Position numbers and translations under genes: made by a program. The notes under the pieces are model-generated. The model was not told the DNA's origin. It made no database searches and saw only the letters and a list, made by a program, of their open reading frames with translations. A stretch of 58,133 nt of DNA from Bacteroidia bacterium (lineage in GTDB: Bacteria > Bacteroidota > Bacteroidia > Bacteroidales > JAPLDU01): assembly GCA_026391255.1 (NCBI GenBank), contig JAPLDU010000106.1:5358-63490 (forward strand), in the 5' to 3' direction. Shown piece by piece: positions 18,401 to 44,681 of the stretch; position 1 is the first letter of the stretch; every line of letters begins with the position of its first letter.

Positions 18401-19533
18401 TGAAAGACGAGTTAGGACATGTTTACTGGCCGCAATTTAACCTGTGCACCATTGGTGAATATACCGGCAGCACTCAGAACAATACTAATATCATTTTGGG
18501 ACAGGGATACCAGATCAAGACAACTCAAGCTACCTCATTTACCGTGGCAGGTCTTGCATGCGTACCTGAACTCAGCCCGATATCATTAAATTCAGGGTGG
18601 TTCATTATCGGTTACCTTAGAATGACTCCTGGCCCGATTGTTGGCGCTAATGGTACTGCAATGCTCAGTACCCTAGGTGCATACACAGGTTCAACCACCA
18701 ATTGTATCACCATTATGAAGGACCAGATAGGACATGTTTACTGGCCTCAATTCAATCTTTGCACCATTGGCGAATATACCGGCAGCACTCAGAATAATAC
18801 CAATATGGTACCTGGCCAGGGTTACCAGGTCAAGATGTTATGTCCAGGAACTCTTACTTATCTGCCAAATTCCTCCTCAAGCTTAGCCAAATCTGAGGTT
18901 ATCAGTATTCCACAGCCATACTATTACAGTGATGTGGAAATTACAGGTAATAACATGACATTGGGTATACCGGCTTCATCATGGACAACCAAACCTGTGA
19001 TCGGCGATGAGATCGGAGTGTTCAATCCAGGCGGTGAATTGTCAGGTTCTTCTGTATATTTCGGAGGAAACACTGAAATAACTATCTGGGGTGATGATAT
19101 GACTACTCCATACGTTGAAGGTGTTGGTGAAGGACGACCCTTTACTATTAAAATCTGGCATCAGGAAACAAATACTGTTGAAGACCTGGTGGTTGATACC
19201 TGGGTGGAAGGATCCGGCATTTTCACCACTGACGGTATCAGTATTGCCGGTAAGTCAACAATTGTTGCATACACATATGCACTCCTGCAAAATAACCCTA
19301 ACCCATTCAGGGAAAATACCACTATTACATTCAGAGTTCCTGAAGATACACAGGTTTCTATCAGCCTGTACAATGTTCTGGGGGATAAAATTACCGATAT
19401 TGTTACCGGTTATTATAAAGCCGGAGAATATAAAATTCCGTTCAATGCAACCGGTCTTGCTGCAGGAAGCTATTTTTACAAGATTATTACATCTGGATTT
19501 GTAGCAACCAGGCAAATGAATATCAGCAAATAA
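9439..19533 (+). CDS. Giant mosaic T9SS-secreted surface protein
   Basis: A 3364-residue protein with a signal peptide (residues 1-24, cut after VYAQ). Domains in order: three BNR_assoc_N-like units (about 25-170, 352-493, 675-818) with FWLAYDI signatures; two copies of an interleaved beta domain starting TGTGTSSDYRL or similar (about 174-350, 497-672) and a third divergent one at about 1451-1640; a right-handed beta-helix rich in short N-x-I/F strands (about 827-1258); CARDB-like units (NDAGCTDITSPVSG); two GEVED domains (about 1838-1915, 2568-2655); a MAM-like domain (about 2031-2208); an Ig-like segment; two SprB repeats (about 2658-2814); module alpha, module beta (about 2941-3150), a divergent second alpha (about 3156-3271); and a type A T9SS tail beginning NNPNPFRENTTITF. 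It is probably a cell-surface or released adhesin or matrix protein. It stands alone in its transcription unit and ends in a strong terminator. Confidence 0.92.
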   Translation: MKKIYALVIVLISMTCLSLSVYAQSDLSYTSGTTTQNTASVFPGSSNAYVIGVQIVTTGTISTGYDAGSFTFSTNGTTNAGDLTAAKIYYTGTSSVFSTSTQFGSLVSNPVGIFTVTGTQELSPGTNYFWLAYDISTSAAAGNLIDAECSSITVADTIQTPTITAPAGARTVVTQVITGTGTSSDYRLPISRRNAYSGCEMIYTSAEMGGIPLMLNSIAWDKASGSNVANITLVTIYMKHTTADTLATGTYNLTGYTQVYTGNFPNGTTTGWMSVNLATAFNYNGTNNLQILVIHGSQAGVAQAQCPTYFYTTTSTNRCRYYTSATAPATASLAATTMLPNTSFGVSIPQFMTYTSSTTTQNTANIAPNSTNGQIIGLQVVMSQPLNPLITTSITFNTNGTTNAGDITNARVYYTGNSSTFATTTQFGTAVASPSGTFTVAGSATMSTGINYFWLAYDIALTAAAGNLIDAECTSITTGGIAYIPTVTAPAGARPVVYNEITGTGTGSDYQLPICRHFAYSGCEMIYTPAEMGGMPLLITSIGWNKASGSNTAGITNVTIFMKHTTSTSLTSGTYSLTGYTQVYSGSFPNTSSTGWMTVTLADTFLYDGTDNLQILVLHGSQTLLANNYPYYYYTTTTTSRCRYYASASAPSGQSFTATTELPNTKFGFLIPTNMTYSSETSSQPNTNFAGSGQNDNGILLADITTAEYLNPLTVSDFTFNTNGSTAAGTDITNAKLYYTGSSSVLSTSNLVGTFSSPNGLFTMTPSAPVTLLTGENYFWLAYDIPATAVTGDVIDAEFISATIAGTAETPVVSAPSGNRMITGPLCGTYTIDPSQPASSTNFISFSSAKSLLEAVGISCPVIFNVAPGTYNEQLAWGVTPIPNISSVNTVTFQSANNDSSGVIIQANVSTVNYVFQMNAATYLIWNKLTFQADPLSTANGCVIKFTNAANHIQFQHCRFTGISGTSTTAAYAIINDDNTTENNITFSNNRFENGSYGFYWLALSGGLETGNIISNNVFVNQYSYGIYITYQDGIQITGNSITTGQASTTFYGIYTSYNQNSSIVAGNKISIANGGDGIYRLNCTGTSSLPGLVYNNFISIGGTVATAGIYHSGSPYQRYYHNSINIYSTFATSYGLFVTGTSPLNIESKNNIFYNQGNGYAFYSGTAYNGAVSNYNDLYTAGTHFGYWGSNYASFTAWQTATSQDLNSVSIVPFFTSNTDLHTLNGVLNAHATPITLITTDIDGETRDLLTPDIGADEFVPLPHDAYLVSMLSPVSGCGNYTEPVTIKIMNTGTATINPGDVTAYYSINNATPVSETVNTTILPGQAINWSFSTQANVSAVTMDQNYNILAYVSLTGDIQNVNDTVHVNLLSVFTPFPPVVAGDTVSYGSTAIVDLQPVTNTTPFWYYQPTGSNYFSFGNTTYTTPPLYDTTCYYVELAGTILADATIGTGTGTYSDYYGPYDNYYTKTKTQFLITAAELTAAGIGAGPITGISFDVSAASTASSSTPPANCQNLSIFLTSTSLTSLSSWITSGFTQVYYNSGNFNDVTGWNTHTFNQGSFVWDGSSNIIIMTSHCNSGTYNYGTAATMLATTTSYVSCNAYYDDDTDPNCTTGELPLYTESQSLRPNIKLHATVPGCRSDRVPVCVVVTNIPANDAGCTDITSPVSGIELTNAESVTVNIYNWGTTPIYNFPISFEVAELGIQVTEILQDTVYSGAMLTHTFQTTVDLSALGTYHFMAYTSTLGDTYYANDTAYSTVINSPLVYCTPTYDYACSSDDYINNFWTTAGLMNISNLNSGCNGNADNYIYYSNMSVMVNPGNSFTIHVQSGSAYAEGFGVWIDFNNDGDFTDAGEHIWSSASANTTAFTYAITIPAGTAIGTHRMRVRCEYDVAPTDPCADLDFGETEDYNITVMPLVDYDASIVNITSPTGSAIQGSTVNVSVTLMNTGLQPLTGLSIYYTINSVPQDTMVWTGNLAFLSSTTATFPVGMVVPAGSFNICAYLIYPADQYAMNNSFCISSFGVVTFTIPYVDNFDGTNYWLAGPATSGSQWQLGTPAYGTTNSAYSAPNSWDVNLTTAYTDNANCMLYTPYFDFTGVSNTKMDFMINYNAENSYDGLRIAYTTNGTSWAVLGTYNDPLGTNWYNAASVASSGNHPVWTGNSGGWVKASHSLAQFNNMPLVRFRFIFTSDASMEYSGISIDNFSITRYDLGLTAINSPVNGCDMTLQNVTITIHNYGDTIFGGVPVSYWLAGGNTITDTITATILPNADFTYTFATQVNLTSVNPATFTLNASVNYPADLILTNNQIQATISNGITPSVNPSADNVTIWSSGTATLSVINPSPYYTYSWYDAVGGTDLHDGTSFTTPALFDTTVYYLVESSGGACPSSFVPVTIFTQYAPYDAMVWSITSPVSGLNLTSSEIVTANVYNNGLDTLYLIPVHYTVNGGTAVNDMIPGPLAPGQHIVFTFAVNADLSVPGNYHICVYTTYPNDGVTANDNLCIYVAHTTCNPSYTYNCVDGDQLTAFQLSNLSQTGIPCNGGYIDYSGATCINITQDSMYIVSGITGYSGEYVTIWVDYNNNLTFTADEIVVTNWEIASAGQSASNIFTIPEYSLDSVYTAGSHRMRVVVNWLSSPTDPCGSYSFGQTMDYCVIVAPNSAFTVNLTATNLNCWGASTGAVDLSIVNTSGVSPFTYLWSNGQTTQDLTGLAAGTYSVTVTDAATNTNTASVTVTQPGQLSTSLFGTDVTTLGGNDGTVTQLTIGGISPYTYLWAPGGQTTGDLTGLFGGLYRVTVTDAHNCTFIDSITINTPNPWSPAPTITTMTHNIHIPANALITLDGNVVPPGSWVGVFYHQGSNLVCGGAHIWNNMDIDLTAYGNTAVSGPANGFASGETFSWKVWVPSPAGDHQGTATYIQPPIYLQTSAFLLGGHSGISALAAITIQYQTINLPAGWGIWSTYIIPNDANLKHVLLSIQPVPYDNVTLANNKVVIVKDELGHVYWPQFNLCTIGEYTGSTQNNTNIILGQGYQIKTTQATSFTVAGLACVPELSPISLNSGWFIIGYLRMTPGPIVGANGTAMLSTLGAYTGSTTNCITIMKDQIGHVYWPQFNLCTIGEYTGSTQNNTNMVPGQGYQVKMLCPGTLTYLPNSSSSLAKSEVISIPQPYYYSDVEITGNNMTLGIPASSWTTKPVIGDEIGVFNPGGELSGSSVYFGGNTEITIWGDDMTTPYVEGVGEGRPFTIKIWHQETNTVEDLVVDTWVEGSGIFTTDGISIAGKSTIVAYTYALLQNNPNPFRENTTITFRVPEDTQVSISLYNVLGDKITDIVTGYYKAGEYKIPFNATGLAAGSYFYKIITSGFVATRQMNISK

Positions 19534-29275: not shown

Positions 29276-29400
29276 CAAAATATATTAATCCAAAATTTAT
29301 TTATTATTAAAATATTGTTTAATCCACAATATATCATTTGATTATATTCGTAAATCGTAATTCGTAATTCTAAAATTAATATAATAACACGGTTGAAAAC

Positions 29401-29451: not shown

Positions 29452-30828
29452 CTATTGTTTGACCACTGTTCTGGTGATAATCTGTTTGTTTCCGTTTATG
29501 ACCCTTAAAAGATAAATACCTGCAGGCCATGTTGACGAATTAACTGAATTGCTGACATCTGAAGTTTTGGCACTGTAGATCATTTGACCGGTTGAATTGA
29601 ATATCAGGATATCAGCTTTTGAAACACCGGGAAGATTCAGGCTAAACGAACCTGTGAACGGATTCGGATAAATACTTATGTCAGACGGTTTGACCAAATC
29701 AACTCCGAGGTGGCTGGTAATATTAATATAGGTTGAATAAGTGTCTGATGATTTGTTGCAATTGATCACAAGAACTACCATGTATGTTCCCCAACTGCCG
29801 AAAACATATGTAACAGGGAAGGTAACAGTTGTTCCATTGCCGGTAAATACCCAGGTCACAGTAACAACATTTCCCTGGACACTCAGGGCAGCAACATAGA
29901 AAGAATCAACCGTAAAATTCAGGCAGGAATCGATCGGGTTAGTCAGCAGGGTATCGATCGGAACGATCTGGGTAGGTTCCAGTATCTGGAATGTGTAACT
30001 ATAAGGAGGGCACAAAGAATCGTTCTGGGCAATAGATACTGTGTAAATTCCCGAAGTCAGACCGTAAATATCTTCCGTAGTGGCGCCGTTGCTCCAACTG
30101 AAAATATATGGTGTATAATAACCGGTAACTGTCAGGTCGATAAAACCGTCATTTCCACCGATAACAGTAACATCAGATATATTTGAATTTACATTCAGGA
30201 AGCAGTTATTCGGAACAGTATCGCCAACTGTCAGAAAATAGCACTGGGTATCGCCGCAACTGTCGTCGGTGGCAATGGTCAGGCAAACATCATATGTGCC
30301 GTTACCCGGGAATGTAAAGCTCAAATTTTGCTGATTGGAGGTCAGTAATGTATTTTGCAGGTAGTCATAAATTGTCCAGTTCCAGGAAGTAATGGTTGCT
30401 CCTGAAGCAGGATTACCAACCGTTGACAGATCAGTAAAAGAATAAGTATTCAGCAGACCATTATTCTGGTACATAAAATCTGCATTACAGGTCATAGGTG
30501 GATTATTCAGATAAACAGAATCACATACGGTACTTTGACAACCGTTACTTGTTGAAATGGTCAGACAAACCGTAGCCGAAGCTGAAGAGTTTAAAATCTG
30601 GAAAACCGGATTTGTAACAGTATCGGTGTAAATGGCACCTCCGCATGTCACTGTCCAGTTCCAGGCAGTTACATTGATCAATGAAGAATCAGTAACATAA
30701 GAATTGTCATAAAGAGACAGCAAGCTTTGGCCGTCATAGTTATAAGTAAAGAAAGCCTGGCACTGTGACTGTGAGAACACGGCCTGAACAGCCAGGATTA
30801 AAACTAAAGTTTGTATAATTTTTTTCAT
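29452..30828 (-). CDS. Secreted PKD/SprB protein with T9SS tail, paralogue 1
   Basis: A 458-residue protein. The ATG at 30828 is chosen over a TTG two codons earlier because the paralogue begins with the same MKKI start. A signal peptide (residues 1-20, cut after VFSQ) is followed by two PKD-like domains (each ending CLTIST..GC..T.C), one SprB repeat with GGNDGFIDLTVTG and TTEDIYGLTSGIYTV, and an unnamed about 90-residue domain starting near DTLLTNPIDSCLNFTVDSFY. The last about 75 residues are a T9SS type A tail (SIYPNPFTGSFSLNLPG ... WPAGIYLLRV). It is a tandem paralogue of the next gene upstream and shares its C-terminal third with the 2076-residue protein. Role unknown; probably a surface or matrix component. 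Confidence 0.9.
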   Translation of the reverse strand: MKKIIQTLVLILAVQAVFSQSQCQAFFTYNYDGQSLLSLYDNSYVTDSSLINVTAWNWTVTCGGAIYTDTVTNPVFQILNSSASATVCLTISTSNGCQSTVCDSVYLNNPPMTCNADFMYQNNGLLNTYSFTDLSTVGNPASGATITSWNWTIYDYLQNTLLTSNQQNLSFTFPGNGTYDVCLTIATDDSCGDTQCYFLTVGDTVPNNCFLNVNSNISDVTVIGGNDGFIDLTVTGYYTPYIFSWSNGATTEDIYGLTSGIYTVSIAQNDSLCPPYSYTFQILEPTQIVPIDTLLTNPIDSCLNFTVDSFYVAALSVQGNVVTVTWVFTGNGTTVTFPVTYVFGSWGTYMVVLVINCNKSSDTYSTYINITSHLGVDLVKPSDISIYPNPFTGSFSLNLPGVSKADILIFNSTGQMIYSAKTSDVSNSVNSSTWPAGIYLLRVINGNKQIITRTVVKQ

Positions 30829-30911
30829 AATCAATTATTTTATAGGTTACAAATATAATGTTTTTTGTTTATAGACTGTTGAAATTAATATTTGGTTGCT
30901 TGTGAAAAATA

Positions 30912-31048
30912 ACCCCTCCTCTGCCAGTGGCGGACTCCCCTACCCTTCGACTACGGCTCAGGGAATAGGGGAGGCTAAAACCCGCGACCATCTCAAAGCC
31001 CTCCTGGTTACTGAGCGGAGTCGAAGTATAGGAGGATTTGGGAGGTTA
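30912..31048. repeat. Inverted repeat between the two PKD/SprB paralogues
   Basis: CCTTCGACTACGGCTCAGGG on the left is inverted against CTGAGCGGAGTCGAAG at 31011-31026. Outer arms CCCCTCCTCTGCC and GGAGGATTTGGGAGG are also roughly complementary. It fills most of the 250-base gap. Confidence 0.7.
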
Positions 31049-31079
31049 AAAAATATAAATCACTGCAAGATGTATTGTT

Positions 31080-32453
31080 CTATTGTTTCACCACAATCCT
31101 GGTGACAAGCTGTTTGTTTCCGTTTGTTACCCTTACGAAGTACATACCTGCAGGCCAATGTGAAGCATTAACCTGATTTCTCATATTCGCTGTTCTGACA
31201 CTGTATATCAATTGACCGGTTGAATTGAATATCCTGATCTCAGCATTTGAAACATCCGGAATATTCAGGTTAAACGAACCCGTGAACGGGTCTGGATAAG
31301 TATTGATCTCAGCCAGGTCAGGGTTATCAATTCCAAGATGGCTGGTGATATTAATATATGTAGTATAGGTTTCAGATGACTTGCCACAAATGATCTGAAG
31401 AACTACCATGTATGGCCCATAATTACTGAAAACGTATGTAACAGGGAAGGTAACTGTCATGCCACTTCCCGTCAATATCCATATAACAGTTACAACACTG
31501 CCCTGAACACTAATTGAGGCAACAGAAAAAGAATCGACTGTAAAATTCAGGCAGCTATCGATTGGAATGGCCATCAATGTATCAATCGGCACATTCTGGA
31601 AGGGTTCCAGTATTTGGAATGTACAATTAATCGGAGGGCAGACGGAATCGTTTTGCCCAATCGTTACGGTATAATATCCGGAAGTAAGTCCGTAAATATC
31701 TTCTGTAATTTCTCCATTACTCCAATTGAAAATAAAAGGAGTATTGGCACCCATTACAGTCAGGTCAATAAAACCGTCATTTCCACCGATAACCGTAACA
31801 TTAGAAATGTTTGGAAACACATCCAGATTACACAGCATTGAATCATTTAGATTAATGCTATGGCACTGTGTATCAGTGCAACCGATGTCGGTATTTATCG
31901 TAAGGCATACATGATAATAGCCTATGCCTGGAAATGTAAAAGCAGGATTTTGAATGGTCGAGGTGAATAATGTATTCTGCAGGTTATCAGTAATGATCCA
32001 GCTCCATGAGGTAATACTTGCCCCTGATGCAGGGTTACCGGCAGAAGAATAGTCGGATAAAGTATAATTATATAAGATACCATTCGGCTGCCAGGAAAAT
32101 TCCGCATGACAGCTTATTACATACGGAATTATGTAAATAGATGTATCACATAAGGTACTAGTGCAACCATCGCTTGTCGAAATGGTCAGACAGGCTGTTA
32201 ACAGGCCTGCATAGTTGCCAACCTGGACAACAGGATTTGCAGTATTATAAGTATAACTTACACCTCCAAAATCTGCTGTCCAACTCCAGGCAGTAACATT
32301 GATCGTTGATGAATCCGTGTTATACGAAGCATCATTAAGGGACAAAAGGCTTACGCCGTTATAGTAATATGTAAAATATGCCTGACACTGTGCCTGTGAA
32401 AACACAGCCTGCGTAGCCAGGATAAAAACTAAAGTTTGTAGAATCTTTTTCAT
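31080..32453 (-). CDS. Secreted PKD/SprB protein with T9SS tail, paralogue 2
   Basis: A 457-residue protein with the same order as paralogue 1: signal peptide cut after VFSQ, two PKD-like domains, one SprB repeat (GGNDGFIDLTVMG, TTEDIYGL-type region here ITEDIYGLTSGYYTV), the unnamed domain (IPIDSCLNFTVDSFSV ... THLGID-like end SHLGID), and a T9SS tail (TYPDPFTGSFNLNIPD). The proline-asparagine turn of the tail reads PDPF rather than PNPF. The tail is nearly identical to that of the 2076-residue protein, also at DNA level. It is followed by a repeat and then paralogue 1, consistent with tandem duplication. Confidence 0.9.
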   Translation of the reverse strand: MKKILQTLVFILATQAVFSQAQCQAYFTYYYNGVSLLSLNDASYNTDSSTINVTAWSWTADFGGVSYTYNTANPVVQVGNYAGLLTACLTISTSDGCTSTLCDTSIYIIPYVISCHAEFSWQPNGILYNYTLSDYSSAGNPASGASITSWSWIITDNLQNTLFTSTIQNPAFTFPGIGYYHVCLTINTDIGCTDTQCHSINLNDSMLCNLDVFPNISNVTVIGGNDGFIDLTVMGANTPFIFNWSNGEITEDIYGLTSGYYTVTIGQNDSVCPPINCTFQILEPFQNVPIDTLMAIPIDSCLNFTVDSFSVASISVQGSVVTVIWILTGSGMTVTFPVTYVFSNYGPYMVVLQIICGKSSETYTTYINITSHLGIDNPDLAEINTYPDPFTGSFNLNIPDVSNAEIRIFNSTGQLIYSVRTANMRNQVNASHWPAGMYFVRVTNGNKQLVTRIVVKQ

Positions 32454-32604
32454 AATAAATTATTTTAATTACAAATATATTATTTTCTAATGATTATATG
32501 TAATTTATTTATTCTTTGCATAAGATTATTAAGGCAATAGCTGGAAAAAAGAATTAACTTTTCGGTAAGTCTTAATTACCCTCAAATTTTAAAAAAATAT
32601 TCTT

Positions 32605-32850
32605 CCTGAAAAAGTCCGTAGGACTTAAATCTTAATAGCCCCGGGCGAAACCCGGGATGCACATGTAACGAATAACCCCATCTGAACCGCTGACCCTGAA
32701 AGGGTCTAATATCAATAGCCCCGGGCGATGCCCGGGGTTAACGAGCCCCCTCTCCCATATTTTCCGGCTTCGCATGTTTGATTTTGTTTTGAAACAACCA
32801 GCTTTCAGCGAAGCCGACGCTACCAAAATAATTATTATTCAACCCTTTCA
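32605..32850. repeat. Family B three-hairpin element, copy 3, with extra modules
   Basis: Contains AAGTCCGTAGGACTT, a CCCCGGGCGAAACCCGGG hairpin, GACCCTGAAAGGGTC, a second CCCCGGGCGATGCCCGGGG hairpin, then CCGGCTTCGC ... GCGAAGCCG. ACCCTTTCAGGG lies near 32842. The first two hairpin types are duplicated in this copy. Confidence 0.8.
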
Positions 32851-32882
32851 GGGATAACTATTCCTTATTTCTCAAAATTCAT

Positions 32883-34325
32883 TTAATTGGGTGGATAAGT
32901 AAGCGTACAGGTAGATGCTACCTTGATCTGATATCCTTTACCCGGCTGCATATTGACTATGTTGTTAACCCCATATTGTGGCCAATAAACATTTCCATCT
33001 CCGTCTTTCATGATAGATAATGCAGAAACTATCTGGCTCATCATGGTAACAACAAGTGCAGGGGATTGACGAAGATAACCCAATATACTCCAACCGGAAG
33101 GGATATTTATCGGATTGGTCTCTGGTACAATTGCATGGCCGGTTATTGTTAGAAACTGTGCTGTTAGCATTCTTACCTGGTATCCTTTTCCTATCTGCAT
33201 ATCTCCGATATTATTTACATTATAGGCTGGCCAGTATGGATTTCCCAAGCCATCCTTGACAATGGAAACCTGAGAAACAATCTGGGCAAAAATATAATTA
33301 ACACCAGGCAATGAAGGATTAATGAATGTTGAAAAAATACTCCATCCTTGTGGTATATTAATTTGTTGCTGCTCTGCGGTGTCAACAGTATATTCTTCAA
33401 TTACTGTGCAATTATGATTATCGGTTACTGTCACATTGTATGTACCCGGTAACAGACCAGTAACCGATCCGGAAGTTTCACCGGTTGACCATAACATGGT
33501 ATATGGAGTTGTTCCTCCTGAAATGTCAAGAAAAGCAGACCCATTATCACATGAAGTACATCCGGAATTTTGTACTAAAACATTAACTATTAGCTCATCG
33601 GGATGAGTTACATTATAAGTTCCCGTTATTGTATCCGGCAGCATTGAATAATAACCAGTCAAAGAATTCAGTACACCTATGGTATTTTCTATGAAGTATC
33701 CCTGATTGGTTATGGCTGGAGGATTCAATGGTGCATAGGAAGCAGTCATATTTACTACTATTCCGTTTGAGCCATTGGTTATATGCCAGACTTTCCAATT
33801 AATAGGTTCATTGTTAATAAATCCATCTTTAAAAGGCGTATCGGGATAATCGCGAAATGCAGGAACTGCAGTATTGTATCCACCACACCCAAATCCGCCT
33901 GTCGAAGTGGTATAAAATACTCCGATATAATCCCCTGTACTTGCAGGTAAACCATTAATTAATACAGTTCCTGCCTGTATAAGGAAATTGTCACACCAAT
34001 AAGCTCCTGAATTGAAAAAACTCCAGTTAAAAGCATTGGGTACAGGATTGTACGAATCGGTAATTGTAACCGTATATGAACCTGGTGCAAGATCAGTAAG
34101 GTCCTGTATCGTGGCAGAATTGCTCCATAAATAAGTGTATGGTGTCACTCCACCTGTGACCGTCAGGTCAATTGATCCATCGGTTGAAAGATAGCAACTT
34201 GAGTTTGTAATTGCTGTGGAGATATTTAACTGTGTATATCCTGAATTTATTAACAACAAGAACATTGCCAGTAAAAGGGAAATTCTGAAAATTATATGTT
34301 TCATAAGGTGATCAATTTTTTTCAC
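32883..34325 (-). CDS. Secreted SprB / module alpha / module beta protein
   Basis: A 480-residue protein with a signal peptide (ISLLLAMFLLLINSGYTQ). Order: one SprB repeat (residues about 33-95), module alpha (about 98-225; GDYIGVFY, FGCGGYN, DGFINNEPINWKVW), a second SprB repeat (GCTSCDNGSAFLDISGG), and module beta (about 322-480; GWSIFSTFI, VKDGLGNPYWPAYN, GKGYQVRM, GWSILGYLR, MKDGDGNVYWPQYG, GKGYQIK). It ends LTYPPN with no T9SS tail, so module beta is the extreme C-terminus. The gene follows the 1045-residue gene by 47 bases and is probably in the same transcript. No enzymatic motif is seen. Confidence 0.88.
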   Translation of the reverse strand: MKKIDHLMKHIIFRISLLLAMFLLLINSGYTQLNISTAITNSSCYLSTDGSIDLTVTGGVTPYTYLWSNSATIQDLTDLAPGSYTVTITDSYNPVPNAFNWSFFNSGAYWCDNFLIQAGTVLINGLPASTGDYIGVFYTTSTGGFGCGGYNTAVPAFRDYPDTPFKDGFINNEPINWKVWHITNGSNGIVVNMTASYAPLNPPAITNQGYFIENTIGVLNSLTGYYSMLPDTITGTYNVTHPDELIVNVLVQNSGCTSCDNGSAFLDISGGTTPYTMLWSTGETSGSVTGLLPGTYNVTVTDNHNCTVIEEYTVDTAEQQQINIPQGWSIFSTFINPSLPGVNYIFAQIVSQVSIVKDGLGNPYWPAYNVNNIGDMQIGKGYQVRMLTAQFLTITGHAIVPETNPINIPSGWSILGYLRQSPALVVTMMSQIVSALSIMKDGDGNVYWPQYGVNNIVNMQPGKGYQIKVASTCTLTYPPN

Positions 34326-34372
34326 ACGGAAAATGACGATTCGGGTTTGATTTTTTATATGCTTAAATTTAA

Positions 34373-37300
34373 TTAATTCGGTGGATAAGTCAGCGTACAG
34401 GCCGATGTTACCTTGATCTGGTAACCCTGGCCGGGTATCATATTGACGATATTATCAACTCCGAATTGTGGCCAGTAAACATGACCTTCTCCATTTTTCA
34501 CAATAATAATATTCGATACGATAGGACTCATCAGGGTAATAACTAATGCAGGAGAGTTACGCAAATAACCCAGAATACTCCATCCTGAAGGAATATTTAC
34601 CGGTGATGTCTCAGGAATTACTGCTATGCCCGTTACCGTTAACGTTTGTGCTGAAAGCATTTTTAACTGGTATCCTTTACCAGTTTGCATATTCCCTATA
34701 TTATTTAGTCCAAAGGACGGCCAGTAAACTGACCCGTTGCCATCCTTGACAATAATCAGTTGTGAAACAACCTGGGCAAAGACATCACTAATGTTTGGCA
34801 TAGTTGGATTTATATAGGTCGAAATGATACTCCAGCCCGTTGGAAGATTTATTTGTTGTTGTTCAGTATATACAAGACTTAACAATGAACTTATACCATT
34901 AATCGCAAAATTCCCCTGATCGGGAAATGCCATATTATAAGTTGGAATACATATATAATCCGTATCCGTGAAGGGATCAAAAACTATCCAGGTAAATGCT
35001 TCCCCAATACTGAATCCATCTTTTACCACAGTAGAAAGATCATCTGCCCATGCAGCAATTACATGTGCAGATCCATTTGCAGAATATTCAAAGTATCCAC
35101 CACAATAATACTGACCGGCAGATTCATAGAATACTCCAATATAGTTATAATTTTGAATCGTATTCCCATTAATGGTAGTATTTACGGGTATCAGTATTGT
35201 ATGGTTATACCCTGTATTTGTATATGACCAACCGGGTGCCGGCATACTGTCAATACTCATTGAACCGGTTTCAGAACATCCTATATAATCAAATACGGTA
35301 ACATGGTAGGTTCCGCCTGTTAACTGCGGAATATTTTGTGTTGTGCAATTATTTGACCAGATATAATAATAGGGGCTGGTACCACCGGTAACAGTTAAAT
35401 TAAAAGAACATGGTATTGTGTCCCCCGCACAATAAATTGAATCAAAATTTAATTGTAATGCAGACTCTTCTGTAATTTTGATAATTGACATTACCGAAGT
35501 ACCGAGCGAATCAGTGACTGTTATATAATAAGTGCCGTCCGACAAACTATCAATATCTTCCGTGGTGGCGCCGTTGCTCCATAAATAGGAGAAAGGGCTG
35601 ATACCACCATTTACTGCTATATCAATATTTCCCGTTGTACCATTGCAGAAAGTCAATGGGCTTAATATTCCAATTGATAAAGAGGAACTGAGGATATTCG
35701 TCAACGGCCTGACCCAAATGCCGGCATTCAAGGTTGAAGCATAAATACTTGAATTATTTATTTCTAATGAGCTGATATTGGATCCTGTCATTCCTGTACT
35801 GACTGAAGTCCAGTTCTGACCATTGTCTGATGATAAATAAACCCCGTTACTTTGCAATCCGGCAAATATATATGAACCATACACTTCAAAACAGGTCAGG
35901 GATTGATAAGAATTTGGAGCGGGGAGTCCTGAATTATATGGAATCCAGCTTTGCCCTTCATTCCATGAATGATAAAAGAAATTATTTTGTGATCCGGCAA
36001 ATACTGAAGATCCGAGTTTTCCAAAGGATTTAACATAGTATCCGGAGCTTAATCCGGTATTTACTAATGTCCAGGATGATCCGTAATTAGTTGATTTATA
36101 AACTCCATTTCCACTGACAAATAAATCTGAATTGACCATTTCCATCGCTTTAATCCCAAGTTGGTTTAACCCGATGTTACAGGCCGACCAGGTTTGTCCG
36201 CTGTCAGACGACCTGAAAATCCCATGTGAATTATCCGAAGCAAAAATCCATGACCCCGATACGACCAATCCTGTAACATTAGTCATATTTGGTATGCCTT
36301 CATTTAAACAGGTCCAGTTTAAGGCGTTATTTACACTTTTATATATCTTTCCTCCGGCTGTACTGACATATATGTCGCTCCCTGCGAGTCTGATTTTGGA
36401 AATATTATAATTTGTAATCCCGTTGTTTCGTACTTCCCAGGTTTGTCCTGTATCAGGTGAATAATAGAAACCAAATGGGGTACCGGCATAAATATCCTGG
36501 TTATTTACGCTTATAGTATTAAAAATTTTAAACTTTATACCCGTATTTGACGCTATCCAGTTCTGAGCGGTGTCTGTTGATTTATAAACACCGTGATAAT
36601 ATGTACCTGCGTATGAGTTTGTCCCGTCAAATAACAAGGTATGTACATTGGGATAGTCCAGCCCGTTATTCATCTGGGTCCAGCTTAGGCCATCATCTGA
36701 AGAAACAAATATTCCATGTTTCATGGTTCCCACATAAATACTGCTGTCATGATAAGATAATGCAGACGCGCTATCCAGATTTGTTCCATTATTAATGGAG
36801 TACCAGTTCTGGCCAAGATCCGGTGACTTGTATACACCGGAATCAGTCCCTGCATACAGATCATTACTGTGTGCCATCAGAGAATAGATATGGTAGTTGG
36901 TAAGTCCTGTATTAATGGATATCCAGGTTTGTCCGTTATCAGATGATTTATATATTCCACTCGAGCCATGGCCTGCAACGAGGATAGTGTCAATAATGGT
37001 TATGCAGGTGATATCCATGTTGCCCAGACCATTATTAACAGCAGTCCAGTTCAGGCCATTATTGACGGATTTATATATTCCCATACCGCTGGAACTGAGA
37101 AAAAGACAGGAACCAGACTGAACAATTGCGGTAATGGGAGTAACGTTACCATTTGGAACATTATTTATTACTGTCCAGTTTTGTCCGTTATCAGTTGAAA
37201 TATACAAATTACATGCAGGCCATGCACTATTCGTTGCCTGAATGGATGCTCCTGCAAAAATATTATTTCCGCTGATGTACAGACAATAAACAGAAGTACC

Positions 37301-37510
37301 CGTGAAAGTACTGACGGATGTCCAGGTTTGGCCGCTGTCCGCCGAAACATATAACCCGCTTCCGTTTGTCCCGGCATAAATAATACTGCCCTGTGACGCC
37401 ATGCAAAAAATTTCACCACCCTCCGGAAGGGCTGATTGCTGCCATTGGGCATTAGCAATAAGAATGGTACAAAGAGAAATAAAAACAGTTAAGAATATTT
37501 GTGGTTTCAT
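34373..37510 (-). CDS. Secreted Asp-box beta-propeller protein with SprB, module alpha and module beta
   Basis: A 1045-residue protein with a signal peptide ending at about residue 21 (IANAQ). Residues about 22-620 hold about 13 Asp-box/BNR repeats (SADSGQTW, STDNGQNW, SSDNGQTW, SPDLGQNW and so on), as in sortilin/VPS10, neuraminidase and photosystem II assembly-factor propellers; no sialidase arginine triad was recognised. Two SprB repeats follow (about 625-780), then module alpha (about 790-905; YNYIGVFY, YYCGGYF, AAWADDLSTVVKDGF, FTWIVFD), then module beta to the end (GWSIISTYI, VKDGNGSVYWPSFG, GKGYQLKM, VKNGEGHVYWPQFG). It ends LTYPPN without a T9SS tail. Probably first in a two-gene unit with the 480-residue gene. 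Confidence 0.9.
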   Translation of the reverse strand: MKPQIFLTVFISLCTILIANAQWQQSALPEGGEIFCMASQGSIIYAGTNGSGLYVSADSGQTWTSVSTFTGTSVYCLYISGNNIFAGASIQATNSAWPACNLYISTDNGQNWTVINNVPNGNVTPITAIVQSGSCLFLSSSGMGIYKSVNNGLNWTAVNNGLGNMDITCITIIDTILVAGHGSSGIYKSSDNGQTWISINTGLTNYHIYSLMAHSNDLYAGTDSGVYKSPDLGQNWYSINNGTNLDSASALSYHDSSIYVGTMKHGIFVSSDDGLSWTQMNNGLDYPNVHTLLFDGTNSYAGTYYHGVYKSTDTAQNWIASNTGIKFKIFNTISVNNQDIYAGTPFGFYYSPDTGQTWEVRNNGITNYNISKIRLAGSDIYVSTAGGKIYKSVNNALNWTCLNEGIPNMTNVTGLVVSGSWIFASDNSHGIFRSSDSGQTWSACNIGLNQLGIKAMEMVNSDLFVSGNGVYKSTNYGSSWTLVNTGLSSGYYVKSFGKLGSSVFAGSQNNFFYHSWNEGQSWIPYNSGLPAPNSYQSLTCFEVYGSYIFAGLQSNGVYLSSDNGQNWTSVSTGMTGSNISSLEINNSSIYASTLNAGIWVRPLTNILSSSLSIGILSPLTFCNGTTGNIDIAVNGGISPFSYLWSNGATTEDIDSLSDGTYYITVTDSLGTSVMSIIKITEESALQLNFDSIYCAGDTIPCSFNLTVTGGTSPYYYIWSNNCTTQNIPQLTGGTYHVTVFDYIGCSETGSMSIDSMPAPGWSYTNTGYNHTILIPVNTTINGNTIQNYNYIGVFYESAGQYYCGGYFEYSANGSAHVIAAWADDLSTVVKDGFSIGEAFTWIVFDPFTDTDYICIPTYNMAFPDQGNFAINGISSLLSLVYTEQQQINLPTGWSIISTYINPTMPNISDVFAQVVSQLIIVKDGNGSVYWPSFGLNNIGNMQTGKGYQLKMLSAQTLTVTGIAVIPETSPVNIPSGWSILGYLRNSPALVITLMSPIVSNIIIVKNGEGHVYWPQFGVDNIVNMIPGQGYQIKVTSACTLTYPPN

Positions 37511-37564
37511 AAAAGTAATTTTAATAAAAAGCGAGATATTCTTATTAATCCAGAATTGAATCTA

Positions 37565-37801
37565 CTGAGAAAGTCCGCAGGATTTAAATCTTAATAACCC
37601 CGGGCGAAACCCGGGGTCAAATGAATCCTCCCCTATGTTTTCCGGCTTCGCATGTTTGATTTTGTTTTGAAACAACCATCATACAGCGAAGCCGGCGCAA
37701 CAAAAATAAATATTATTCAACCCTTTCAGGGTTACCGTTAAACAACCTTCATACTACCCTGCACTCCGTACAGGGCTATTCATATTCAATCCCTTCGGGA
37801 T
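37565..37801. repeat. Family B three-hairpin element, copy 4
   Basis: AAGTCCGCAGGATTT, CCCCGGGCGAAACCCGGGG, then CCGGCTTCGC ... GCGAAGCCGG. It is followed by extra mini-palindromes: ACCCTTTCAGGGT, CCCTGCACTCCGTACAGGG and AATCCCTTCGGGATT. It separates the 2076- and 1045-residue genes. Confidence 0.8.
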
Positions 37802-37821
37802 TTATATACTGGCTTATGGTT

Positions 37822-40800
37822 CTATTGTTTCACCACAATCCTGGTAACAATCTGTTTGTTTCCGTTTGTTACCCTAACGAAGTACATACCTGCAGGCCAT
37901 TGTGAAGCATTCACCTGATTACTCATGTTCGCCGATCTGACGCTGTATATCATTTGACCCGTTGAATTGAATATCCTGATCTCAGCGTTTGAAACATCCG
38001 GAATATTCAGTTTAAACGAACCTGTGAACGGGTTTGGATAAATGAGAAGATCAGCCTGATTGCCGGCATCAACTCCGAGGTGACTGGCAATGTTAATATA
38101 GGTCATATAAGTGTCGGACGATTTATTACAATTGATCACAAGAACTACCAGGTAGGTTCCCCAATCGCCGAAAACATAAGTTACCGGGAAAGTCGCAGTC
38201 ATCGAATTACCTGTGAGTACCCAGGTAACGGTGACAAGATTGCCCTGGACGCTCAGTCCTTCAACATAGAAAGAATCGACCGGAAAATTCAGGCAGGTAT
38301 CAATCGGGTTTGTAAACAGGGTATCGAGAGGAATATTCTGGTAAGGTTCCAGAATATGAAATGTATAATTAACCGGTTGGCACAGGGAATCAGTTTGTCC
38401 GATCGTCACGGTATATAAGCCGGAAGAAAGTCCGTAAATATCTTCCGTGGTTGAGCCATTGCTCCAGCTGAAATAAAACGGCGGATTACCCCCTGTCACT
38501 GTCAGGTCGATAAAACCATCATCAGCACCGATAACCGTGACACCGGAAATAACGGAAGTCACATTAATATTGCAGCCATTCGAAAATAATGTATCAGCAA
38601 CACTTGAACAGCCGTTACTGTCGGTAATGGTGACAGAATATGTTCCAAATGCTGAAACTATAATATGCTGAGTTGTCTCTCCGGTTGACCAGTTAAATGT
38701 GACAGGCGGAATTCCGCCGGTGTAGGAGGCTACAAGAGTATCCGAACCGTTAACATTTATCCCTGCCTGCAACTGGGCGGGTTGTGTTACATGAATGATC
38801 TGGACATTCTCAGCGCCTGCAGCATCACTGACGGTCACATGATACATACCCGCTGCCAGGCCTGCGATATGATCTGTTGTTGCACCTGTGGACCACAAAT
38901 ATGTATAGGGTGACATTCCGCCGTTGACTGTCAGTTGAATCTGTCCGTCACTTAAACCGTAACATGTGACATTAACTGATGTATAAGAAATCTGCAAAAC
39001 TGAAACAACAGAAGCAGAATCAATGATTGTACATGATTGGGAATCGGTCACGGTAAGGTAATAAATACCATCATTAGTTACAGTGATATTACCGTCTGTT
39101 GCTCCATTCGACCAGAGATAAGTGTAAGGAGGTGTGCCACCGGTAGTGGTTGAGTTTAGATCATAATAACCAGTTACAGTAATTCCTGAATTCATTGCAG
39201 GTGGCTGGCTGATCACAAAACCTTCAATGACGGCTGCTCCAATAAAGCCGCTGACAGTCACATCATATGTTCCAGCTGCCAATCCTGTTACACTTTCGGT
39301 TGTGGCCCCGGTTGACCAAAAATATGAATAGGGTGTCTGGTCACCGGTAACCGTAAGCTGAATCTGCCCGTTACCGGAACCATTACATGTGGCATTGGTT
39401 ACCGTTCCGGTGATTTGTAATGGCCCAAAAACAATTGCAGTTACAATTATTGAACATAAATGAGCATCGGTCACCGTTAAGTAATAAGTATCCGGATTAG
39501 TTACAGTTATATTACTTGTTGTAGCCCCGGTTGACCAGAGATAAGTATAAGGAGGTGTTCCACCTGAAGTGTTCGGATTCAGGTTATAAGAACTTGTTAT
39601 GATATTTACTGAATTCAATGCAGAGGGTTGGGTAATCACATAACCCTCAATAGCAGGTGTCCCTGAAATGTCAGTCACAGTAACATGGTAGGCTCCCGCT
39701 GCTAATCCTGTGACAACGGCAGTTGTAGCGCCGGACGACCAAAGATATGAATAGGGTGTCTGTCCACCTGTCACAGTCAGTGAAACAGATCCGTCGTTCC
39801 CATTATGACATGACACGTTGGTACTTATATAATTCACCGTAAGTGGTGGAATTAGGTTACTCAGGCTGGTAAGGCCGCTCATCCCATTTGTGACATAAAA
39901 TCCCTGGTTGGGCATAGTTATTATATACATAGGATTTGCATTATATTCTGAATTGGTTGTAATATCCCAGATTTTCCATTGGAAAGCTTCATTGGATGCA
40001 AACCCGTCTTTGGCAGGAGTCATAGGATCGTCGCCCCAAGCTGTTAATGCGCAAGTAATACCTGACCAGGTTACATATCCACCACAGGCAATCCCGCCGG
40101 CAGGCAGGCTGTAAAATACTCCAATGTAACTTCCGTTAGCTAATGGAATTCCATTAATATACACCGTATTAGAGGGAATAATAATACTATGGTTTACACC
40201 GGTATTGACATATGTCCAGGAAATTGTCCCGGTCACTAGTTCGGACGCAGTTATGATACATGAGTGTGAATCGGTGACTGTAAGTGAATAAACACCTGTG
40301 TTTGCAACAGTGATATTATCTGTTGTGGCGCCGGTTGACCAGAGGTAATCATATGGAGAAGTTCCTCCAATGGGAGTTGAGTTTATTAAATATGAACCTG
40401 AATTGGTGGTATAGGTAATATTTACCATCAAATATGCGGGACAGGTAACATGTGGCTGGTCAATAATTACCTGGCCATCGGCAGAAGTCACAGTTACATG
40501 ATATGTCCCTGAAGGAATCCCAGTGATTGCAGATGTGGTAGCGCTGTTTGACCAATGATATACATAAGGTGCGAGTCCTCCGCTTACAGTTAAGTGAATC
40601 TGGCCATCGCTGGAACCGTTACAGGAAGCATTTGTGATGGTATGGCTGACTTGTAACAGTGAATAAACAACCTTCGAAGTAATGGCAGTACATGAATTGT
40701 TATCTGTCACTGTAAGTGAATAAGTTCCGGAAACGGTTGTGGTAATAGATTCTGTTGTGGCTCCGTTTGACCAGTTGAATGAATATGGACTTATACCGCC

Positions 40801-43800
40801 GTTAATTGTAGTAGTGAGAGTATAAATACCGGCAGCATAAGAACTGGTTATCGTCACTGACATTGAAATTACTGTAGCCTGGTTTGTGATTGTCTGGTTA
40901 TCTGCAGAAGTCACAGTAAACTGGTATGTCCCTGCAGAAAGTCCTGTTATAACTGATATAGTGGCATTGTTTGACCAGAGATATGTATAAGGAGTAATAC
41001 CACCGGTAACTGTAAGCTGGATTTGTCCGTCACCGGAGCCACTACACGATGTATTAGTTACAGTTTGATTGACTTGTAATGGTTGTATGGTGGTAACGGT
41101 GTCAATAATCGTACAAGTGTGGGCATCAGTCACTGTAAGGTAATAAATATCCAGATTGGTCACGGTAATATTTCCGGTTGTTGCCCCGTTCGACCAAAGA
41201 TAAGTATAAGGCTGTGTACCACCTGTGGTAGTCGAGTTCAGATTATAAGAACCCGTGACAGAAATTCCTGAATTCAGCGAACCCGGCTGATGGATCAAAA
41301 AACCCTCAAAATAAGGTATCCCCGAAATATCACTCACTGTAACAAGGTAGTTTCCGGATGCTAAACCTGTTGCAACTGCAGTGGTTTGACCATTCGACCA
41401 AAGATACGAATAGGGTGTCTGGCCGCCACTGACGGTTAATGAGACAGAACCGTCATTCCCGTTATAACACGTAACGTCGCTAATATAATAATTCACCGTA
41501 AATAATGGATTCTGGTTACTCAGGCTGGTCAGACCACTCAATCCGTTTATGGCAAAAAATCCCTGATTGGGCTGGTTTGTCATGTAAGAAGGATAGGCAT
41601 CATATTCGGTACTTGTTGAAATATCCCATATCTTCCACTGAAAGGCTTCATTGGTCGAAAACCCATCTTTGGCAGGAGTCATCGGATCGTCGCCCCAGGC
41701 TGCTAAAGCGTTGGCATTTCCTGTCCAGACGATATATCCGCCACAGGCAATTCCACCAGCCGGCAAACTGTAAAAAACCCCGATATAGCTTCCGATTGAT
41801 AATGGATTTCCATTTACATAAACTGTATTAGCAGGTATAAAAATTTCGTGGGCGCCAGTATAGATATTACACGTCCAGGGACTTGGCTGGGTGGCGAATA
41901 TTGTATCTTTCTTAAAACATGAATGAGAATCAGTGACGGTGAGTTTATAAGTACCTGGCGAACTCACAGTAATATCTTCGGCTGTGGCTCCATTCGACCA
42001 GAGATAAAAATAAGGAGATGTACCTCCGGTTGCTGTGGAATTCAGAAAATATGAATTGCTGACTGCTGTATTTGTAATGCTCAACTGCAATGCCGAAGGT
42101 GAAGTAATACTGGCCTGGTCTGTTATTGTCTGGTTATCTGCAGAATGCACAGTTACATTATATGTCCCCGCTGCAAGCCCTGTGATTGCTGATGTTGTGG
42201 CATTATTCGACCAATGATATGTATAAGGCGTCAGTCCTCCGCTTACAGTTAACTGAACCTGGCCATCGTTGGAGCCATTACAGGAGATGCTAATTATTGT
42301 ATGACTGACTTGTAAAGTTGCATAAACCGTCTTTGAAGCAGTAACCATACATGAGTTAATATCAGTCACAGTAAGATAATAAGTTCCCGGAACGGTTGTA
42401 GTGATACCAACTGTTGTAGCTCCATTCGACCAGTTATATGAATAAGGACTTGTACCTCCGGTTATGGTAGAATTGAAAGTATATGTACCGGAAGTATATG
42501 AACTGGTTACCGAAACAGAAAGTGTAGTTGCCGTGGCATAATCTGTAATAGTCTGGTTATCTGCAGATGTCACAGTTACATGGTATGTCCCTGCCGTAAG
42601 CCCCGTTATTGTTGATGTTGTGGCGTTGTTAGACCAATGGTAGATATAAGGCGTCAATCCTCCGGTAACATTTAGCTGAATAATACCTGTTCCGGTCCCG
42701 GGACAATCATACGATATGATATGACTGACCTGTAACGAAAGATAAGCGTAAGCAGATAAAGTATTTGTACATGAATTGGAATCAGTCACTGTCAGGGAAT
42801 ATGTTCCCGGAACCGTCGTGGTAATATCTTCTGTGGTGGCTCCGTTTGACCAGATAAATGAATATGGAGTTGTACCACCGGTAATGGTAGCATTGAGAGT
42901 ATATGTACCGGCAGCATACGAACTGGTCACCGAAACTGTCAATGAAGTAACTGTTGCTACGTCAGATATTGTCTGACCATCTGTTGAAGTCACAGTTACA
43001 TGATATGTCCCTGCCGTAAGCCCCGTTATTGTTGATGTTGTGGCATTGTTCGACCATAAATATGTATATGGAGTAATACCTCCTGTAACGGTCAACTGTA
43101 TCTGACCGGTAGCTGAACCACTGCATGTATTCACAACAGTGTGGCTGACCTGTATTGGCGGGGCGCTTACCGTAAAGGATGCCGAAGCTGCACAGCCATT
43201 TGAATTGGTCACCGTAAGTGAATAAGTCCCCGGATCGGTGACTGTAATACTGTCGGTCACTGCCCCGTTTGACCAGGCATACGTACTGGAAGTGTTACCT
43301 CCCATTGCCCAAAGGTGGTGTGTATTACCGGTTGTTGTATCTGATATGCTAATATTCATCGTAGAATTCAAAGCATTTACATAAGCTGCCTGAACCTGAG
43401 CGGTTCCGCTGAAATCGGTGATAGTAACAATATAAATCCCTGCCTGCAGGTTCTGGTTATTGGATGATGTGCCCGAATTGGACCACAGGTAGGCATAGGG
43501 ACTTTGTCCGCCTGTTGCCGACAACTGAACAGCGCCGTCAGTTGAAGTGTAACAACTGGCGGGGGTTACAACGGATGTTACATTAAATGACAGTGATCCG
43601 ACATGCAGGGAGCTGAGTCCGCTCATACCATTTGCAATAAAATTCCCGGCATTGGCAAATGTGCCTGTACCGGCAGGAAAATACTCAGGAATTGCATCAT
43701 AAACAGAATCCGTAACCGAATCCCAGATTTTCCACTGAATTAATTCATTACTGGCAAAACCCTCCTTGACAGTTGTCTGTGAATCATCCTGCCAGGCCGA

Positions 43801-44052
43801 CATTACCCTTGCATTCCCGTTCCAGGCCACATTCCCGCCACAAGTCGGCACCCCGGCATTGCTGAAAAAAACACCGATATAACTGCCTGAAGAAAGTGGC
43901 ATGCCATTGATAGTCACCGAACCGGCAGGAATATAGATGATATGAGAGAACCCCGTTATTACAAAACTGAAGCCGGCAGGTTGAGCCGATGCAGAATAAC
44001 ATTGAAATGCCGCAAAAATCAAAGCTGTGAATTTATATATATACTTTTTCAT
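37822..44052 (-). CDS. Giant SprB-repeat adhesin with three alpha modules and T9SS tail
   Basis: A 2076-residue protein with a signal peptide (LIFAAFQCYSASAQ). Module alpha copies lie at about 26-150, 720-847 and 1272-1397 (SYIGVFYSLPAGGIACGGY, AAWGDDPMTPAKDGF, FQWKIWD). Between and after them are about 21 SprB-type repeats in blocks of 8, 6 and 7. They alternate two forms: A with an N-terminal Cys (C.GS.DGQIQLTVTGG) and B with the Cys at the end (GTYSLTVTDSNSC). The last about 245 residues match the two PKD/SprB paralogues: one SprB repeat, the unnamed DTCLNFPVDSFYVEG domain, and a T9SS tail (YPNPFTGSFKLNIPDVSN). SprB repeats are known from the Flavobacterium gliding adhesin; an adhesive surface role is inferred. 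The gene follows the stand-alone beta gene by 41 bases. Confidence 0.92.
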   Translation of the reverse strand: MKKYIYKFTALIFAAFQCYSASAQPAGFSFVITGFSHIIYIPAGSVTINGMPLSSGSYIGVFFSNAGVPTCGGNVAWNGNARVMSAWQDDSQTTVKEGFASNELIQWKIWDSVTDSVYDAIPEYFPAGTGTFANAGNFIANGMSGLSSLHVGSLSFNVTSVVTPASCYTSTDGAVQLSATGGQSPYAYLWSNSGTSSNNQNLQAGIYIVTITDFSGTAQVQAAYVNALNSTMNISISDTTTGNTHHLWAMGGNTSSTYAWSNGAVTDSITVTDPGTYSLTVTNSNGCAASASFTVSAPPIQVSHTVVNTCSGSATGQIQLTVTGGITPYTYLWSNNATTSTITGLTAGTYHVTVTSTDGQTISDVATVTSLTVSVTSSYAAGTYTLNATITGGTTPYSFIWSNGATTEDITTTVPGTYSLTVTDSNSCTNTLSAYAYLSLQVSHIISYDCPGTGTGIIQLNVTGGLTPYIYHWSNNATTSTITGLTAGTYHVTVTSADNQTITDYATATTLSVSVTSSYTSGTYTFNSTITGGTSPYSYNWSNGATTVGITTTVPGTYYLTVTDINSCMVTASKTVYATLQVSHTIISISCNGSNDGQVQLTVSGGLTPYTYHWSNNATTSAITGLAAGTYNVTVHSADNQTITDQASITSPSALQLSITNTAVSNSYFLNSTATGGTSPYFYLWSNGATAEDITVSSPGTYKLTVTDSHSCFKKDTIFATQPSPWTCNIYTGAHEIFIPANTVYVNGNPLSIGSYIGVFYSLPAGGIACGGYIVWTGNANALAAWGDDPMTPAKDGFSTNEAFQWKIWDISTSTEYDAYPSYMTNQPNQGFFAINGLSGLTSLSNQNPLFTVNYYISDVTCYNGNDGSVSLTVSGGQTPYSYLWSNGQTTAVATGLASGNYLVTVSDISGIPYFEGFLIHQPGSLNSGISVTGSYNLNSTTTGGTQPYTYLWSNGATTGNITVTNLDIYYLTVTDAHTCTIIDTVTTIQPLQVNQTVTNTSCSGSGDGQIQLTVTGGITPYTYLWSNNATISVITGLSAGTYQFTVTSADNQTITNQATVISMSVTITSSYAAGIYTLTTTINGGISPYSFNWSNGATTESITTTVSGTYSLTVTDNNSCTAITSKVVYSLLQVSHTITNASCNGSSDGQIHLTVSGGLAPYVYHWSNSATTSAITGIPSGTYHVTVTSADGQVIIDQPHVTCPAYLMVNITYTTNSGSYLINSTPIGGTSPYDYLWSTGATTDNITVANTGVYSLTVTDSHSCIITASELVTGTISWTYVNTGVNHSIIIPSNTVYINGIPLANGSYIGVFYSLPAGGIACGGYVTWSGITCALTAWGDDPMTPAKDGFASNEAFQWKIWDITTNSEYNANPMYIITMPNQGFYVTNGMSGLTSLSNLIPPLTVNYISTNVSCHNGNDGSVSLTVTGGQTPYSYLWSSGATTAVVTGLAAGAYHVTVTDISGTPAIEGYVITQPSALNSVNIITSSYNLNPNTSGGTPPYTYLWSTGATTSNITVTNPDTYYLTVTDAHLCSIIVTAIVFGPLQITGTVTNATCNGSGNGQIQLTVTGDQTPYSYFWSTGATTESVTGLAAGTYDVTVSGFIGAAVIEGFVISQPPAMNSGITVTGYYDLNSTTTGGTPPYTYLWSNGATDGNITVTNDGIYYLTVTDSQSCTIIDSASVVSVLQISYTSVNVTCYGLSDGQIQLTVNGGMSPYTYLWSTGATTDHIAGLAAGMYHVTVSDAAGAENVQIIHVTQPAQLQAGINVNGSDTLVASYTGGIPPVTFNWSTGETTQHIIVSAFGTYSVTITDSNGCSSVADTLFSNGCNINVTSVISGVTVIGADDGFIDLTVTGGNPPFYFSWSNGSTTEDIYGLSSGLYTVTIGQTDSLCQPVNYTFHILEPYQNIPLDTLFTNPIDTCLNFPVDSFYVEGLSVQGNLVTVTWVLTGNSMTATFPVTYVFGDWGTYLVVLVINCNKSSDTYMTYINIASHLGVDAGNQADLLIYPNPFTGSFKLNIPDVSNAEIRIFNSTGQMIYSVRSANMSNQVNASQWPAGMYFVRVTNGNKQIVTRIVVKQ

Positions 44053-44093
44053 TGTCTTATTGATTTTAAATTCAAAATGATGAAGGATGGTGA

Positions 44094-44681
44094 TTAGTTG
44101 GCAGGATAAGTTAATGTGAATGTCTGAATGGCTTTAATTGAATAGCCCTGGCCCGGGTCAATGTTGGTGTTTAACTGTGTACTCCCTGAATATTCACCAA
44201 TAGTACACAAACTAAACTGAGGCCAAAATACATGACCCGCCGTATCCCTTATGATAGCAACATTTGTCATATTTAACTGTGAATTCAATGATAGAATTGA
44301 GATCGGCGTTTGCCGCAAATATCCAAACATACTCCATCCGGCCGGAATGGTAATGGGAGTGAGTTGCGGAACAACTGCAGTTCCTGTAACAGTCAATGTT
44401 GCCGCAGCATGCATTTTTACAAAATAACCCTTTCCGATGGTCATGTTTCCGATGTCATTGTACGAAACCGCAGGCCAGCATATGCTTCCATGATCATCTT
44501 TTATGATATCCAATGAGGCGATGATAGGGAAAAATACCGCCTGGACCGAAGGATTTACGGGTACCAGGTAGGTTGACATAAAACTCCAACCATTTACAAG
44601 TGTGATATTCTGCGTCTGTGTCTGTGAAAACACAACCTGGGTCACCAGGATTAAAATTAAGATTTGAATATTTTTTTTCAT
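44094..44681 (-). CDS. Small secreted protein consisting of module beta only
   Basis: A 195-residue protein: signal peptide (residues 1-20, cut after VFSQ) plus one complete module beta. First half: GWSFMSTYLVP, IIKDDHGSICWP, GKGYFVKM, TLTVTGTAVVP. Second half: GWSMFGYLRQTP, IIRDTAGHVFWPQFSLC, GQGYSIK, ending LTYPAN. The second half has the LCTIGEYSGSTQLNTN insertion seen in both halves of the giant protein's beta module (LCTIGEYTGSTQNNTN), so these two are close relatives. It appears to be first in an operon with the 2076-residue adhesin. With no other domain, it is the simplest protein in which to study the module. Confidence 0.88.
   Translation of the reverse strand: MKKNIQILILILVTQVVFSQTQTQNITLVNGWSFMSTYLVPVNPSVQAVFFPIIASLDIIKDDHGSICWPAVSYNDIGNMTIGKGYFVKMHAAATLTVTGTAVVPQLTPITIPAGWSMFGYLRQTPISILSLNSQLNMTNVAIIRDTAGHVFWPQFSLCTIGEYSGSTQLNTNIDPGQGYSIKAIQTFTLTYPAN

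Follow-up and report, generated by a model that had tools for sequence, protein, structure and literature searches.

Putative T9SS-exported mosaic proteins of an uncultured Bacteroidales bacterium share a C-terminal module

INTRODUCTION

In the 58,133-nucleotide stretch of Bacteroidales DNA analysed here (the window), six minus-strand genes between positions 29452 and 44681 encode secreted proteins pieced together from recurring modules. The initial annotation saw in them a lineage-specific, shuffled surface or matrix system with common T9SS tails, assembled in part from two unnamed modules, alpha and beta, and from an unnamed domain carrying the motif DSCLNFTVDSF (here gamma). Known T9SS signals, in the accessible portions of earlier work, comprise types A, B, and C, with short and long forms of type A (PMC10202324, PMC12618676, PMC11969387), and T9SS cargo is usually predicted from known C-terminal signals. 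Judged from sequence, the six genes probably encode T9SS-exported surface proteins that share a C-terminal attachment or sorting cassette and belong to a set of 70 genes in the source genome.

RESULTS

Our examination of the locus confirmed the six open reading frames and their Sec-type signal peptides, the latter recognized in 6/6 proteins by sequence inspection, and Pfam together with local HMMs reproduced the annotated module orders almost exactly. Gene 1 (44094..44681; all six lie on the minus strand) consists of a signal peptide and beta (44097..44612), the protein ending with beta at LTYPAN. Gene 2 (37822..44052; 2076 aa) has the order alpha-(SprB)8-alpha-(SprB)6-alpha-(SprB)7-gamma-type A tail, with alpha at 43600..43974, 41515..41880, and 39856..40221, gamma at 38074..38319, and the tail at 37831..38043 (PF18962, E 3e-14). 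Gene 3 (34373..37510) encodes a BNR/Vps10-type propeller followed by SprB-SprB-alpha-beta (alpha 34868..35233, beta 34376..34858), and gene 4 (32883..34325) encodes SprB-alpha-SprB-beta (alpha 33654..34028, beta 32886..33368). Gene 5 (31080..32453) and its paralogue gene 6 (29452..30834) share the order PKD-PKD-SprB-gamma-type A tail, with gamma at 31332..31577 and 29704..29949 and PF18962 tails at 31089..31298 (E 3e-15) and 29461..29673 (E 3e-13), respectively. The true start of gene 6 is likely ATG 30828 rather than TTG 30834, and that of gene 4 is likely ATG 34304 rather than GTG 34325. The annotated plus-strand protein 9439 (9439..19533; 3364 aa) proved to be a further user of the same modules, its C-terminal part reading SprB-SprB-alpha-beta-alpha'-type A tail (alpha 17866..18243; beta 18259..18870; tail 19297..19497, PF18962 E 5e-6). 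The alpha' domain (18925..19263, residues 3160-3279), located between beta and the tail and identified by local HMM and tree, had been overlooked. Two more SprB-repeat proteins are encoded at 5387-8119 and 1-5337 (minus strand), the former with five SprB repeats and without a recognized C-terminal signal.

The T9SS tails attributed to the cluster as a whole were found in only half of it: PF18962/TIGR04183 matched genes 2, 5, and 6, as well as 9439, in Pfam and NCBIfam searches, whereas genes 1, 3, and 4 lacked the match and the final residue of beta was the final residue of each of these proteins. A type B signal (CHU_C/TIGR04131) was absent from all six proteins in the same two databases, where CHU_C gave only weak sub-threshold matches overlapping the type A tails.

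The cluster is a local concentration that arose in part from tandem duplication: the proteins of genes 5 and 6 are 65.6% identical and 300-nt blocks are repeated within it at 76-85% identity. The last 250 residues of gene 2 are ~72% identical to those of genes 5 and 6. The signal peptides of genes 1, 5, and 6 are nearly identical (MKKxxQxLVxILxTQxVFSQxQ), though gene 1 has only beta, which suggests duplicated gene 5' ends. An intergenic repeat of ~110-145 nt, whose copies are 80-90% identical, occurs at 28848-28955, 29161-29290, 32710-32856, and 37590-37734; it holds a GC-rich palindrome (CCCCGGGC...GCCCGGGG), recurs on other contigs of the genome (loci L096, L098, L100, and L111), and had no Rfam match in the window. 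No full match to the Bacteroidota -33/-7 promoter pattern was present upstream of the cluster genes. Two minus-strand genes placed directly before the cluster, at 44977-46491 and 46488-47072, encode an ECF sigma factor and a membrane protein of 504 aa and, given this upstream position, may regulate it; by inspection, the membrane protein could be an anti-sigma factor, and its C-terminal part looks barrel-like.

Local profiles built from the window copies recovered those copies far above chance, with E values of 1e-42 to 1e-158 for alpha and 1e-85 to 1e-95 for beta, the genome-wide search serving as the independent test. Beta, ~160 aa long, is an internal duplication of a unit of ~80 aa (hhalign 99.9%). 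Gamma (82 aa), taken in the initial annotation as an unnamed domain, is on its sequence probably a divergent PKD-like domain: Pfam PKD (PF00801) matched residues 318-368 of the gene 6 protein with E 5e-4 and 20.4 bits, below the curated cut-off of 23.5. The annotation of alpha and beta as unnamed, by contrast, withstood a profile check, in which Pfam, NCBIfam, and PDB sequences returned only chance matches. Likewise, 45 + 11 beta sequences used as queries against Pfam and NCBIfam had no match to the curated T9SS signal models of types A, B, and C (including NF033708). The accessible portions of the open-access literature on T9SS signals and SprB/PKD proteins describe nothing like either module; within Pfam, NCBIfam, PDB, and this literature, alpha and beta are unnamed families. 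AlphaFold2 models built with own-genome alignments reached pLDDT 97.5 and pTM 0.90 for alpha (query, third alpha of gene 2) and pLDDT 97 and pTM 0.89 for beta (query, beta of gene 3), the latter predicted as a twin repeat with helices in which the Ig-like beta-sandwich of type A signals was not seen. Neither model had a Foldseek match in the PDB at E 1e-3, a result that falls short of proving a new fold. A weak Foldseek resemblance of alpha to a transthyretin-/Ig-like sandwich (E about 0.1) was not used.

The unit to which the six genes belong proved wider than the cluster that had been annotated as the system. The source genome (4.08 Mb, 161 contigs) contains 81 alpha matches and about 48 intact betas (50 rows with fragments) in a profile search of contigs, and its fetched loci hold 70 alpha/beta genes on 43 contigs: 31 with both modules, 21 with alpha alone, and 18 with beta alone. 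Type A tails number at least 150, SprA_N was detected at E 7e-170, and most complete beta-terminal proteins begin with a signal peptide. Of the SprB proteins in the fetched loci, 33 close with a type A tail, 9 with beta, and 13 with neither (many of these 13 have broken frames, and one is type B-like), counts that are biased because the loci were chosen by alpha or beta content. PorP_SprF had nine matches in the genome and 0 in the window; two of the nine are some 2 kb or less from a beta-terminal gene, and the shuttle was not systematically located beside such genes in this genome. Multi-alpha proteins (AAAAB, A-SprB8-A-SprB6-A) occur alongside many beta-bearing proteins. The sequences derive mostly from metagenome-assembled genomes (MAGs), which contain frameshifts and runs of N, and some frameshifted copies are present in this genome (C8, C28, and C86). 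Very long SprB-repeat frames of up to 8407 aa were also observed (loci L107, L112, L115, L116, and L117; G000 contigs C129, C138, C143, and C144), some of them interrupted by frameshifts or stretches of N.

Beta kept to a strict order at the C-terminus. Among 165 surveyed betas, 150 were C-terminal: 78 in the order beta-alpha'-type A tail, 59 in last place, usually followed by 0-1 residues, 7 in the order beta-alpha'-short unrecognized tail (marine Flavobacteriales, endings inspected), and 6 as beta-x-tail; a further 13 were internal or N-terminal, and 2 were cut. With local HMMs, beta was C-terminal in own-genome proteins (50 loci and the window), either closing them itself or being followed by alpha' and the tail, and the same order held in ten G031 loci, in 59 named loci from Bacteroidales, Flavobacteriales, other Bacteroidota, and one Melioribacteraceae MAG, and in the same-order genomes G084, G040, and G004. 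In the cultured Aureibacter tunicatorum, beta lies about 215 residues before the C-terminus, and a weak type A tail match is found at the end. The description of the modules as shuffled therefore holds for alpha, SprB, and PKD upstream, the first two varying widely in number and order, but not for beta, which with few exceptions keeps a fixed order at the C-terminus, nor for alpha', which forms its own subfamily. Because a tree of 73 rows (FastTree, few columns) required 3 label changes versus 59 in shuffles, alpha' is a position-specific subfamily that is nearly one clade across genomes. On the beta tree, terminal and tailed copies were intermixed (22 label changes versus 25.3 in shuffles; 32 versus 46.6 with G084, G040, and G004 added), and the alpha'-tail unit therefore appears to have been gained and lost repeatedly, with low branch support and no direction inferred.

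Beta was found in 10/41 same-order genomes and in 37/396 genomes of the phylum sample, and alpha in 37/295 genomes of the order, several genomes having alpha without any beta found. Copy numbers of beta are 49 here, 108 in G084, 89 in G144 (treated, by inference, as the same MAG as the JAIOYV records and not as independent of them), and 17-44 in six others. Lineage specificity, as originally proposed, applies to this amplification, which is confined to some families, but not to the modules themselves, which are patchy across Bacteroidota and occur in one Melioribacteraceae MAG. The T9SS translocon gene sprA was present in 37/37 beta-positive genomes versus 304/396 overall in the phylum sample, an association (hypergeometric P 3e-5, without kinship correction) that is confounded by phylogeny.

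Most beta-terminal proteins carry domains of extracellular type, including GH5, GH8, GH9, PL11, PL14, alginate lyase, and LamG, and further cohesin, FG-GAP, MAM, and PKD. In G004, which contains 17 betas and only one weak match to alpha, 11/11 classified betas were terminal and located on secreted proteins, mostly polysaccharide-degrading enzymes (among them GH5, GH9, GH8-CBM9, PL11, PL14, and alginate lyase). When the GH5 enzymes of G004 (n=9) were picked by catalytic domain and not by beta, two had beta at the end, two others had a type A tail (one weak), and the remaining five, mostly single-domain, had neither; beta and the type A tail never occurred together.

DISCUSSION

The initial description of T9SS-linked secreted mosaic proteins drawn from shared modules is borne out at the sequence level, and we propose that the products of the six genes are exported by Sec and the T9SS to become surface or matrix proteins of this uncultured Bacteroidales bacterium. 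The signal peptide would direct each protein to the periplasm, and in tailed members, as expected from what is established about type A signals (PMC10202324, PMC12618676), the T9SS would recognize the type A tail, which would be removed at the surface to leave beta-alpha' as the mature C-terminus. Because of its position and varied cargo, beta, present in tailed and tail-less members alike, may be a shared surface-attachment or sorting module that would hold diverse N-terminal parts (adhesive repeats, propellers, lectin-like domains, and polysaccharide-degrading enzymes) at the surface or in the extracellular matrix. The tail-less, beta-terminal proteins could be retained in the periplasm or leave by another exit route.

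Comparison with known systems places the beta-bearing proteins close to, but not within, the established classes. They resemble type A cargo (PF18962/TIGR04183) in that three of the six genes and 9439 carry this tail, directly preceded in 9439 by the beta-alpha' cassette; unlike it, beta is a separate unnamed domain with another predicted fold and ends 59/165 surveyed proteins without a type A tail. With type B cargo (CHU_C/TIGR04131), exemplified by the gliding adhesin SprB, they share SprB repeats, an adhesin-like architecture, and the C-terminal position, but the six genes have no type B signal and PorP/SprF is not consistently adjacent. Type C (NF033708, ChiA) proves that further T9SS signal classes exist, although beta does not match NF033708. 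A repeated module shared by many unrelated secreted proteins also recalls cohesin-dockerin and S-layer homology systems; unlike those, alpha and beta have no sequence or PDB fold match, and docking is here only hypothetical.

Whether beta might itself be a C-terminal T9SS signal of a fourth class, distinct from A, B, and C, which would make the alpha'-tail unit dispensable, deserves consideration, and we regard this as possible but doubtful. It would fit the 59/165 betas that are last domains with almost nothing after them, the intermixing of terminal and tailed betas on the tree, the 11 classified betas of G004, each of them terminal, on CAZymes and other secreted proteins, the mutual exclusion of beta and type A tail in its GH5 set, and the presence of SprA wherever beta is found. 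However, a type A tail would then be redundant, yet the tailed proteins retain it in full; the PorP/SprF shuttle does not consistently accompany beta-terminal genes; and the predicted fold of beta differs from the Ig-like sandwich that characterizes type A signals. In its full form, namely an undescribed sorting or anchoring class with a fold not in the PDB, amplified in some uncultured Bacteroidales to ~100 copies per genome and replacing the type A tail there, including on polysaccharide-degrading enzymes, the idea is accordingly offered as tentative.

The coexistence of multi-alpha proteins with many potential beta clients, and the division of the gene set into 31 members with both modules, 21 with alpha only, and 18 with beta only, would also suit an alpha-beta docking pair in which multi-alpha scaffolds hold beta-bearing proteins at the surface through a cohesin-dockerin-like contact; yet the 17 betas of G004 face one weak alpha match and alpha occurs in several genomes where beta was not found, so that we consider such pairing unlikely. 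Free shuffling of generic adhesion modules, with position devoid of meaning, accounts for the wide variation in alpha and SprB numbers and orders but hardly for a beta that is C-terminal in 150/165 cases or for a position-specific, nearly monophyletic alpha', and this already disfavoured explanation seems improbable. We give very little credence to beta-terminal proteins being truncated tailed genes or assembly errors: frameshifted copies do exist in the source genome, but the protein ends coincide precisely with the border of the domain across many unrelated genes and in several genomes, and 2/3 beta-terminal genes of the window are followed by another gene after 41-47 bp, too short a gap to have contained an alpha'-tail.

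If beta, as the shared attachment or sorting module that we favour, does mark exported proteins, some of the secretome, cellulases and polysaccharide lyases among it, would escape current predictions. Alpha and beta are direct targets for structure determination and for a reporter-fusion test: they reach up to about 100 copies in a genome, yield confident models, have no relative in Pfam, NCBIfam, or PDB, and occupy a fixed position by the secretion signal. Viral sequences contained no sequence relative of beta in a viral contig scan and phage tblastn; among viral models, Foldseek returned one match to beta (BFVD A0A8D9C8P8, E 4e-4, TM 0.51), a protein predicted in an uncultured marine phage and named "putative hemin binding protein".
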